Made by a program: the position numbers and the translations under genes. Shown piece after piece: positions 20,025 through 23,869 of a DNA stretch of 64,000 bases; position 1 is the stretch's first letter; every line of letters starts with the position of its first letter. Origin of the DNA: Falciphora oryzae (lineage: Eukaryota > Ascomycota > Sordariomycetes > Magnaporthales > Magnaporthaceae); contig JNVV01000014.1 in assembly GCA_000733355.1 (NCBI GenBank), forward strand, positions 652,064 through 716,063. Direction: 5' to 3'. The notes under the pieces were generated by a model, which worked only from the letters and a program-made list of their open reading frames with translations, did not search any database and had not been told where the DNA came from.

Positions 20025-23000
20025 CTACTGGGGGTAAAAGTTCATGTTATCTACCGTGCTTATGCTGCTAACGTCGTCGTCGACGAACCCCTCGTCCGAC
20101 CTGCTGCTCGCCCGCTTCTTGAGCGAGTCCCAGCGCCCCACCAGCGACGACGAGAGCCGTGCCGAGTCGGGCTGCATGTTCCCCGCGCCGCCCTGGGGGT
20201 GGTGGAAGGCGAGGTCGCTGCTGACCTGCTGGACCAGCTGCGGCGGCGGCGGCGGCGGCGGCGGCGGCTGGGCCTCCGTCGAGACGGCAAAGCTGGACGA
20301 CACCGCAGACAGCTTGCGGAGCCGGCGCTCCTCGGCGTCCACGGCGCGCACGACGGCCTCGCCCCCGGGGAGCCGCACGTCCTCGGCGCCCAGCGTCTCG
20401 GCGATGTCGAGCAGCAGCACGTCCATGGGGCACAGGTAGGCGACGCGCTTCCTGTCGCTCCAGGCGAGCACGTGGCCGCACAGGCGGCCGTGCTCGCGCT
20501 CGACGATCCAGGCGCCGCTGTCGCCCGGGATGCCCATGGGGAGTGGCGGTGGGCCGCCGGGCCGGTCCTGCTGCCGCCGCTTGCGCTGCTGCGGCGAGGG
20601 CGTGCCGCTGATCTGGTACGAGTGGCTGGGGGTCTGGCGCCCGTAGATCTTGATGGAGACGAGGGCGGGCAGCACGCGGCCGGTCTGCAGGCCGCTCGTG
20701 CGCGCGATGCACTGCACCTCGAGGCCCGGGAGCGCCGAGGCCGGGGCCACGGTGGTGGGGTTGAGGCCGGTGGCGGGGGCCAGGGCCTCGCCGTCGGGGC
20801 TGATCTGGGGGATGAGGTTCTTGCTGGGCACGCGGTTCCTGTGCTTCTCCTCGTCAAACTCGATCAGGGCCCAGTCGATCTCGTGGACGAGGCCGTTCTC
20901 GTCGGTGCGCCGCCGGATGCCGCTCGAGGCGTGCACCTCGCCGATGGTGTGGCTGGCCAGGTGCTCCTCATCGGCCGTTTCGGGGTCCGGGAAGAAGCCG
21001 TCCTGGACGTCCTCGAGCGCGGGCTGCGTGACGACGTAGCCCTCGCCGCACCCGACCTCGATGCCCGGTATGTCGCCGGGCTCGCTCGGCGTGTCGTCGT
21101 CGTCGTCCGCGCCGCCGTCTTCCCCGTCGTCGTCGCTGGTAAAGGCCGACTCGGAGTAGGCGTCGGACTCGCTGTCGGAGAACTCGCACGCGTACTCGGA
21201 CTCGTTGCCGCTGCTGCTGTAGCCGGCGGACTGCTCTGCCTGCAGGTCGGCGTACCACTGCGAAAGCGACGCGTTGAGGTCCATCATCTCCTGCGCCGTG
21301 GCGCTGCTGCGCAGGATCTTTTGTATCTGCTTCTCCGTCGCCGTGTTCTCGCCGACGCCGGCGTCGGGGTCGTCAAGCATGTGGTGCACCGTCATGCCGT
21401 ACGGCTTGTCGTCCACCAGGACCAGCCCGCCGAAGCTCACGGGCGGCAGGTGCCGGCCGCCGATCCACGCCCCGATGCTCGCCCCGTTTCCTGGCTGCTC
21501 CTGGAAGTCGCCGTTGGCCGGCTCGAGCGGGCCGCGGCCGCCCCCTTGGTGCTGCTGCTCCTTTGCACCCGCCGTCGCCGCTGTCTTGCGCGAGCGCAGG
21601 ACCTGGCCCCTGCAGACCTTGAGGGCGAAGCCGGTGGTGCCGTCGAACAGGGTGCCCAGCTGCTTCTTGAGGATGCTGCGCACCTTGGAGACCGAGGTGC
21701 AGACGACCAGGACCGTGGGCTGCGTCTCGCGCGCCGACGCGCCGATGGACTCGAGCGAGATCTCAACCGACTCAGGATGCTTGCGGTTGAAGTGGCGCAG
21801 CGCCTGGTTGACCTGCGGCATGATGTGCTTGTTCCATTGCTCGACCGCGTCGGCGGGTAGGGGTACGTGCGGGTACAGTCGCGACTTTGGTGCCGACCTC
21901 TTGGCCTTTGCTTGGACCTCTTCTGGTAGGGGGAAAGCTGCAGAAGGCGACGTGGGTTAGACAAGGGCAGAACGCAGCAAGGAACAACGGTGCGTGCAAG
22001 CATCCACTTACTCTCGATGACGACAGGTGTCGTCTGGGTGAACCCTGGAGGTGGAGGCCCTTGTCTTTCGGGAATCACCTGCAGAGCCGGCCCCTTTGCG
22101 GACTTTTTGGACTCCTTGGACGATCCTGCTATGGGCTGCTGCGGTGGCACGGCGACTGGGGGCGGGCGCGGCTCGCCCAGGTCGTCGCTGAGGCGCTCCT
22201 CCAGCCCGCTCACGCCGTCGAGGATGCAGCACGCCTCGAGATAGCGGCTGGCCTTGACCTGGACCCTCGACACGAGCTGCTCGCCGCCGCCCTGGCCCGA
22301 GAGCTCCTTCTCCACAGCCGTCCAGCAGGCCTGGACCGCCTTCATGTACAGAGTGCCGCAGCGGATGGCGAGCTGGTCGAGAAGGCCGACGGGGATTTCG
22401 GTCGAGCCGGCGTGCGGCACCAGGTTCTCGAGGTTCGTCCAGAGACCGATGGAGAGGAGCAGCATCGAGAGCGAGTAGAGGTCGAAGACGCGGGACTCGG
22501 CGCCGTCGCCCACGCTGGACTGGCCGGTGAGGCGGGGGTCGAGCGGGTGCCGGTAGAGCGAGAAGCCCGTCGCCGAGGGGGCTGGGGCGGCGGCGGGGTC
22601 CTCGAAGGGCGAACCAGGGAATAGATCGAAGGATGACACGAGCGGGCGGCGGATGTCGACGTCGGCCGTGTTCATAGCCGGGTCGTTGCCGACGGCGTTG
22701 CAGAAGGAGATGTTGGTGTCGACCAGGTTGCCGTGGGTGATGCCGCGGGCGTGCATGTCGAAGACGGTGTTGGCCAGGTTGGAGGCGAGGCGGAACTTGG
22801 CCTCGAGCTTGGGCTCGAAGTCGGGCCGGCGCAGCAGGTCCGAGAGCGAGCAGAGGCTGTAGAGCGGGTTCTGGGTTAGGTTCTCGAACGAGACCGGGTT
22901 GAAGGTGGGCGGGAACTGGTAGACGAGGCCCAGGCGGGAGTGCTCGATGTCCTCAAAGTAGGCCAGCAGGCGGGGCAGGCCGATCCAGGAGCCGGGCGAG

Positions 23001-23869
23001 CGCTGCGAGTCGGTCTGCAGGCCGGCCGAGAGCTTCTCGAAGCGCGTCATGGACGGCATGATGCCGGCGTCCGAGTATATGGGGTCGAAGTTGGCGTACT
23101 CGAGCAGCAGCGGGGCGTTGGGCTGCCTGCCCTGCGCGGCGCCGGACTGGGGAGCGACGTCGGCGTAGGCCTGCTTGTTCATGAAGACGATCTCGCGCGG
23201 CCGCTTCTCGTCGGACACGGCCTCGGACATGGGCTCGGCCTGGATGGAGCGCAGGTTGGTCAGGGTCCTGGGGTCGATCTGGCGGGCCGTCTCGAGGCGC
23301 GACGACTCAAAGGCGCGCATCTCGTCGGCGGCGCCGGCGGCCTTTTGCTGGTCGGCGCGGGAGCCCGGGCCGCTGGATCGGGTGCGCGAGAGGTCGTAGA
23401 GGGTGTCGATGGAGGTGGTGAGGTCGCGGACCAGGTCCTCGAAGCGGCCCTTGTCCCAGGGCACGATGGGCAGCTTGGCCTGGGCGCTGGCGGAGCCGCC
23501 CTTCTCCTTGGACGAGTCGCGCTCGCCGATCAGGCGGCGCGAGCTCTGCCACAGCGGCTCGGCCTCGGCCAGGATGTCCTTGATGGTGGACATGATGCTG
23601 CCGACGACCTCGCTGAGCCCGGCCTTGGACAGGGACGAGTCGATCAGCAGCTCGGCGGACTCTACGGCGGTGTTGTCGGACCACTCCAGCCCCCAGCTGA
23701 CCAGGCGGTCCTTCTGGATGCGCAGCTTGCGGTGCAGCGCCCTGATGTCGGGGTCGTCGCCATTGTGGACGGGCTCCTTGAGGAAGTCGGACGATTTCTT
23801 GGTGTCATTGTACAGCCTGCTCAGCCGACGCTGGACCGGGGCCGCACTGGCTGGGAAGTACCCTTCCAT
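20025..23869 (-). CDS. Helical (HeLo-like?)-pseudokinase-trypsin-like protease fusion protein
   Basis: Exons 23869-22012 and 21937-20025 join in phase across a 74-nt GTAAGT...CAG intron to 1,256 residues. Residues 1-230 are helical, with LRIQKDRLVSWGLEWSDN, reminiscent of HeLo-type fungal domains (weak). Residues about 250-530 resemble a protein kinase, but the catalytic loop reads HGNLVDTNISF (His379), lacking the HRD aspartate, with FDLFPG at the DFG position: a pseudokinase. A Pro-rich linker follows. From about 690 the fold looks trypsin-like: TVHHML (His804/805), EIDWALIEF (Asp974) and GIPGDSGAW (Ser1093) form a plausible intact triad, interrupted by a long Asp/Glu/Ser insertion at about 870-920. 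A poly-Pro stretch lies near 1170. There is no signal peptide, so it is probably cytosolic. Role unknown. The layout suggests a signal-regulated protease, possibly in cell death or non-self response (inference). Confidence 0.85.

Follow-up and report, generated by a model that had tools for sequence, protein, structure and literature searches.

A HeLo domain, a pseudokinase and a predicted chymotrypsin-fold protease joined in one conserved protein of Falciphora oryzae

In this study, we analysed a stretch of 64,000 nucleotides from the ascomycete Falciphora oryzae (contig JNVV01000014.1, positions 652,064 to 716,063; hereafter the window) and focused on a two-exon gene on its minus strand (23869-20025), the spliced product of which comprises 1,256 residues. 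This protein joins an N-terminal HeLo domain and a pseudokinase to a domain that is predicted to adopt the chymotrypsin fold and carries an intact His-Asp-Ser triad. The fusion, the intact triad and the conservation make a regulated intracellular serine protease the best reading, in which a HeLo-pseudokinase sensor or switch half would be connected by a flexible linker to a protease output half. We give this reading about an even chance.

Gene structure and conservation

Exon 1 (22012..23869, minus strand, as are all features of the gene given below) encodes residues 1-619 and one base of codon 620, and exon 2 (20025..21937) encodes the remainder of codon 620 to residue 1256 and the stop codon. 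The intron of 74 nt (21938..22011) has a GTAAGT donor, a CTAAC branch-like site and a CAG acceptor. The annotated orthologue of Gaeumannomyces tritici (P0001) is 88% identical over its length, with its residues 1-624 matching exon 1 at 95% and its residues 623-1245 matching exon 2 at 87%, and VVIETFPLP spans the splice junction in both proteins. A partial record from Magnaporthiopsis poae shows 89% identity (over 65%) to the second half. Coordinates, strand, intron and named residues in a preliminary description of this DNA were correct, as was its view that a single protein joins both halves. Two separate genes were rejected as a reading because the halves are also fused in annotated orthologues, with a collinear splice junction. 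An exon-by-exon search of the 50.2 Mb genome revealed one copy; the next match (33%) covers the kinase part only.

A search with the whole protein retrieved 752 proteins at E <= 0.001, of which the best 120 were listed; counts over 121 rows refer to these 120 and the query. Among the matches listed, P0001 is 88% identical to the query and the other 119 share 56-69% of its residues; identity to P0001 is 54-69% in a set of 39 other homologues. The named rows represent 55 genera. Six species checked from Magnaporthales, Sordariales, Xylariales, Hypocreales, Diaporthales and Glomerellales are all Sordariomycetes, and the homologue of Neurospora crassa (P0105) has 57% identity. The exon-2 search listed the best 120 of 289 matches (48-89% identity) and provided a second set of 119 homologues, one match being already in the first set. 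It includes P0239 from the Leotiomycete Rhynchosporium agropyri, with 51% identity and the whole triad kept. The gene is conserved in Sordariomycetes, and one Leotiomycete was also seen to carry it. The listed exon-2 matches were taken as orthologues or pieces of them; other protease layouts could hide lower down.

Residues 1-200 and 245-560 each have a median identity to the query of 68%, and residues 641-1146 one of 63%; the value falls to 32% in the linker (561-640) and 24% in the tail. The variable, Pro-rich linker (residues 564-640; 21876..22180) spans the intron and has a predicted local distance difference test (pLDDT) score below 50 at 572-619. The variable C-terminal tail (residues 1146-1256; 20028..20360) is probably disordered, with pLDDT below 50 at exon-2 residues 573-636. 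The structure alignments comprised 52 of the first 120 homologues and the window exon, and the Pfam alignment scan covered 40 of the 120 orthologues. An NCBIfam scan of four proteins matched nothing, and PADLOC gave an MkoA match of 40 residues only in two of four proteins (E 0.0047 and 0.016).

The protease half

The model of the C-terminal half predicts a chymotrypsin-type double beta-barrel (PA clan), as the preliminary description had proposed, at residues ~779-1145 (20361..21461). The protease region had been given as 690-1256; the fold stands within the narrower limits, and an alpha/beta domain (residues ~643-730; 21606..21869; 10-residue pLDDT means 84-95) precedes it. The term 'trypsin-like' holds for the fold but not for a proven specificity, as Pfam trypsin families matched neither the query (E <= 5) nor any of the 40 orthologues (E <= 1).

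The triad lies in the order claimed, in the motifs HH (804-805), DWAL (at 974) and GDSGA (at 1091). The predicted catalytic residues are His805 (21381..21383), Asp974 (20874..20876) and the nucleophile Ser1093 in GDSGAW (20517..20519). The catalytic histidine is read as His805 and not His804, since relatives carry TVDH, TVQH or TAHH. H804, H805, D974 and GDSG are invariant in all 121 rows, and the pattern is therefore not a product of chance. In the second set, which covers the exon-2 half, both histidines are present in 119 of 119 proteins and the aspartate and serine in 118; the remaining protein, P0123, is a truncated record.

An acidic, D/E-rich low-complexity insert (residues 812-905; 21081..21362) separates His805 from Asp974. 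Over residues 838-905 the median content is 35% D/E and 0% K/R (121 rows). This Ser-Asp-rich stretch with almost no basic residues keeps its character among homologues and has a similar acidic counterpart in the cysteine-type paralogues described below; it might be a phosphorylated gate.

A viral relation was also considered. A fold search of BFVD gave nothing at E <= 0.001; viral serine proteases and polyproteins appear among its strongest rows (from E 3.5e-3 on), which a shared fold would give, and a viral source is neither shown nor excluded.

The pseudokinase and the HeLo domain

The model shows a bilobal kinase fold at residues ~193-563 (22181..23293), wider than the limits of 250-530 proposed earlier, and the earlier claim that it lacks the catalytic aspartate was confirmed. 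HGN (residues 379-381; 22727..22735) replaces HRD within the motif HGNL (379-382), with Asn at position 381 in 109 of 121 rows, Ser in eight and the aspartate in just two. At the beta-3 place, assigned by eye, all 121 rows have Glu257, and Asp415 is likewise retained in 121/121. An active kinase was rejected on account of the near absence of the HRD aspartate and of the presence of Glu257 where active kinases have the beta-3 lysine.

The query did not match DUF7580 (PF24476) at E <= 5. PF24476 was matched at E <= 1 in 21 of 40 orthologues (best E 2.3e-4), and two singly shown proteins reach 16.9 bits against a cut-off of 27. The kinship to DUF7580 rests on paralogues that themselves score slightly below the cut-off. 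The Foldseek order HER3, EGFR, BRAF, RIPK1 was not read as kinship because the VIA-align rows were tied.

A HeLo-like N-terminus had been suspected, and the profile bears this out: residues ~12-165 (23375..23836) match PF14479 with 29.1 bits (gathering cut-off 23.2). A precomputed PF14479 match exists in 113 of the 120 listed homologues, and all 40 orthologues scanned match at E <= 1. Seven of eight orthologues score above the cut-off; P0115 lies below it (21.3). Five helices are predicted (12-24, 40-58, 66-81, 86-114 and 140-162). The fold-match lists for the exon-1 model, which includes this bundle together with the kinase part, were filled by kinases.

The hydrophobic N-terminal helix of pore-forming HeLo domains of the HET-S and MLKL type was not found. 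In 10 of 10 singly shown proteins the best PF14479 stretch starts no earlier than profile position 32, compared with a start at position 12 or before in 17 of 22 HeLo matches elsewhere in the genome. The N-terminus is polar and basic. For the 117 of 121 rows with a motif that served as an anchor, the best 19-residue N-terminal hydropathy has a median of -0.15 and a maximum of 0.82, whereas the same measure reaches 1.83 and 1.41 in the paralogues L011 and L012. Membrane attack by HeLo domains uses this helix (PMC12881547, PMC10197012). Therefore, the HeLo domain of the protease protein is probably not a pore-former.

Related proteins

Three paralogues in the same genome (L011, L012 and L014) are fungal HeLo-DUF7580 (HELL-kinase) proteins, which combine the same HeLo and kinase-like families and show no protease within the stretch read. 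The profile of the kinase-like family matches L011 (E 1.7e-15) and L012 (E 1.3e-14) among four sequences, and both, unlike the protease protein, possess the hydrophobic N-terminal helix.

A second family shares the alpha/beta pre-domain, the acidic insert and the protease region (hhalign probability 97.8%, E 1.1e-12, 392 columns). It consists of L015 in the same genome (G000:C54:96464-98878) and P0240-P0243, P0246 and P0248-P0250. The alignment pairs all three triad residues. However, the Ser1093 place is occupied by Cys in 9/9 members (GDCG, in a GDCGSW context, with GNCG in one case), His and Asp do not vary, and neither PF14479 nor a kinase was matched in L015 or the seven relatives scanned. 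The L015 search gave 11 proteins, of which P0244, P0245 and P0247 were excluded from the count because, at 19% coverage, they probably align only with sequence into which the L015 reading frame runs on; the hits of L015 among peroxidase-P450 proteins probably have the same origin. Most of the chymotrypsin-fold cysteine proteases known to us are viral. This family is, judging by its aligned residues, a possible cellular example. In P0241 the Cys-type protease-like region precedes PigL_N (PF17111, a model for N-terminal sequences that is listed elsewhere as Helo_like_N), which may represent a real fusion or two merged genes.

Discussion

It is tempting to speculate on how such a protein might work. 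The sensor or switch half would consist of a non-lytic HeLo bundle and a DUF7580-type pseudokinase, and the output half of the alpha/beta pre-domain and the protease. The HeLo and pseudokinase modules would bind a partner, a ligand or a phosphorylated signal and would then change shape or oligomerise, which would relieve inhibition of the protease; such control by the kinase part is suggested by the layout. The acidic insert between His805 and Asp974 is a candidate gate. Ser1093 would then cut or degrade a conserved cytosolic or nuclear protein. A comparison is offered by NARROW LEAF 1 (NAL1) of rice and maize, which is a fold match only and, to our knowledge, has no HeLo or kinase part. Maize NAL1 degrades a TOPLESS-like corepressor (PMC12915138). 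This indicates what a protease of such a fold can do inside a cell, as an analogy and not as sequence kinship.

Several observations weigh against a regulated intracellular protease. Each exon was folded separately, and the models hold no inter-domain contacts. The protease model has a mean pLDDT of 60 and a predicted template modelling score of 0.50, and the TM-scores that Foldseek assigns to it are low, not exceeding 0.24 by query and 0.54 by target in the best 50 rows. For the kinase part, sequence matches in the PDB are weak (RSK E 0.2, CLK1 E 0.42), and NAL1 was not found in PDB sequence searches. In a comparison of four sequences, the HeLo profile of the family matches L012 weakly (E 4e-4) and L011 without significance (E 0.57). 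A genome-wide search with the HeLo family gave 22 matches without that of the window protein, which shows how far it has diverged. Since HeLo-kinase paralogues exist in the genome without a protease, the front half can, to judge by them, work alone. Finally, the conservation is also compatible with a protein that acts on itself just once.

In MLKL and the plant MLKLs, too, a pseudokinase follows an N-terminal bundle of four helices that is related to HeLo (PMC12881547). MLKL executes necroptosis by piercing membranes, whereas the Falciphora protein lacks the hydrophobic helix 1 and carries a protease in addition. We tentatively consider, at somewhat less than an even chance, that an MLKL-like switch has been rewired to proteolysis, with a HeLo domain devoid of the piercing helix and a pseudokinase that gates the attached protease, making a non-lytic signalling device from cell-death parts for filamentous fungi. 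The GDCG family would then represent rare cellular chymotrypsin-fold cysteine proteases.

The main rival is a sensor of regulated cell death, in which the HeLo-pseudokinase half would sense non-self or damage and the protease would activate a gasdermin or another killer protein. HeLo and DUF7580-type domains belong to the world of cell death, and a 2025 review reports HELL domains in kinase and pseudokinase proteins as well as proteases that control fungal gasdermins and are fused to kinase-like or repeat domains (PMC12881547). However, those sensors carry S8, CHAT or other proteases and adjoin a gasdermin gene (PMC12881547), whereas the fold predicted for the Falciphora protein is of the chymotrypsin type and the open reading frames (ORFs) scanned around it include no such gene. 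The window holds 45 non-overlapping ORFs of at least 150 residues, two of which are the protease gene; no NOD-like receptor (NLR) or gasdermin family was matched in the 20 scanned of the other 43, although Pfam may lack a model for fungal gasdermins. The word 'trypsin' is absent from the text of the review and from the main text of a paper surveying the effector domains of fungal NLRs (PMC9815663). Heterokaryon-incompatibility genes are polymorphic, lineage-specific and multi-copy; one copy and the identity of 56-69% in the 119 listed homologues, a between-species comparison, speak against such a gene. The missing hydrophobic helix, the apparently single copy and the strong conservation likewise argue against a death sensor, which we regard as unlikely, and the resemblance to cell-death receptors in the preliminary description was not supported. 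The conservation suggests a protein with a core role in signalling and not a cell-death receptor that changes fast.

Alternatively, the protein might be its own substrate, with the linker as one conceivable cleavage site, and the fragments might act as a scaffold, as known for the yeast Ssy5 protease. The long variable Pro-rich linker and the intact triad would suit such self-processing. However, the peptidase family of Ssy5 is not among the 11 families that match any of the 40 orthologues at E <= 1, and we consider this quite improbable. Least probable is an inactive protease fold that serves for binding only: the protease half has 93 invariant columns out of 506, so that triad invariance is not unique and alone no proof of catalysis, but all three residues and GDSG are kept in every homologue covering them and the corresponding set retained by the paralogue family is Cys-His-Asp.

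Precedents exist for the HeLo-pseudokinase pair and for the pair of protease and kinase-like domain. No description of the three-part fusion was found in the literature covered, which lay mostly outside subscription papers and included PMC12881547, PMC10197012, PMC9815663, PMC1325252 and PMC12915138. HeLo-pseudokinases have been studied as membrane killers, and the proteases of the fungal death field as activators of gasdermins. A conserved protease joined in one chain to a HeLo-pseudokinase without the membrane helix would link both worlds and suggest that ordinary signalling, too, makes use of these modules.

Genomic neighbourhood

The scanned neighbours include a downstream BolA-like gene, DUF1996, a GMC oxidoreductase, sugar and MFS transporters and an ankyrin protein. 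A subtilase with PA and Fn3-like domains is encoded at 33069-35243 (minus strand), ~9 kb from the protease gene. An ORF of 1,266 residues at 38358-42155 (minus strand), ~14 kb from the protease gene, carries a HET domain (E 3.5e-24).
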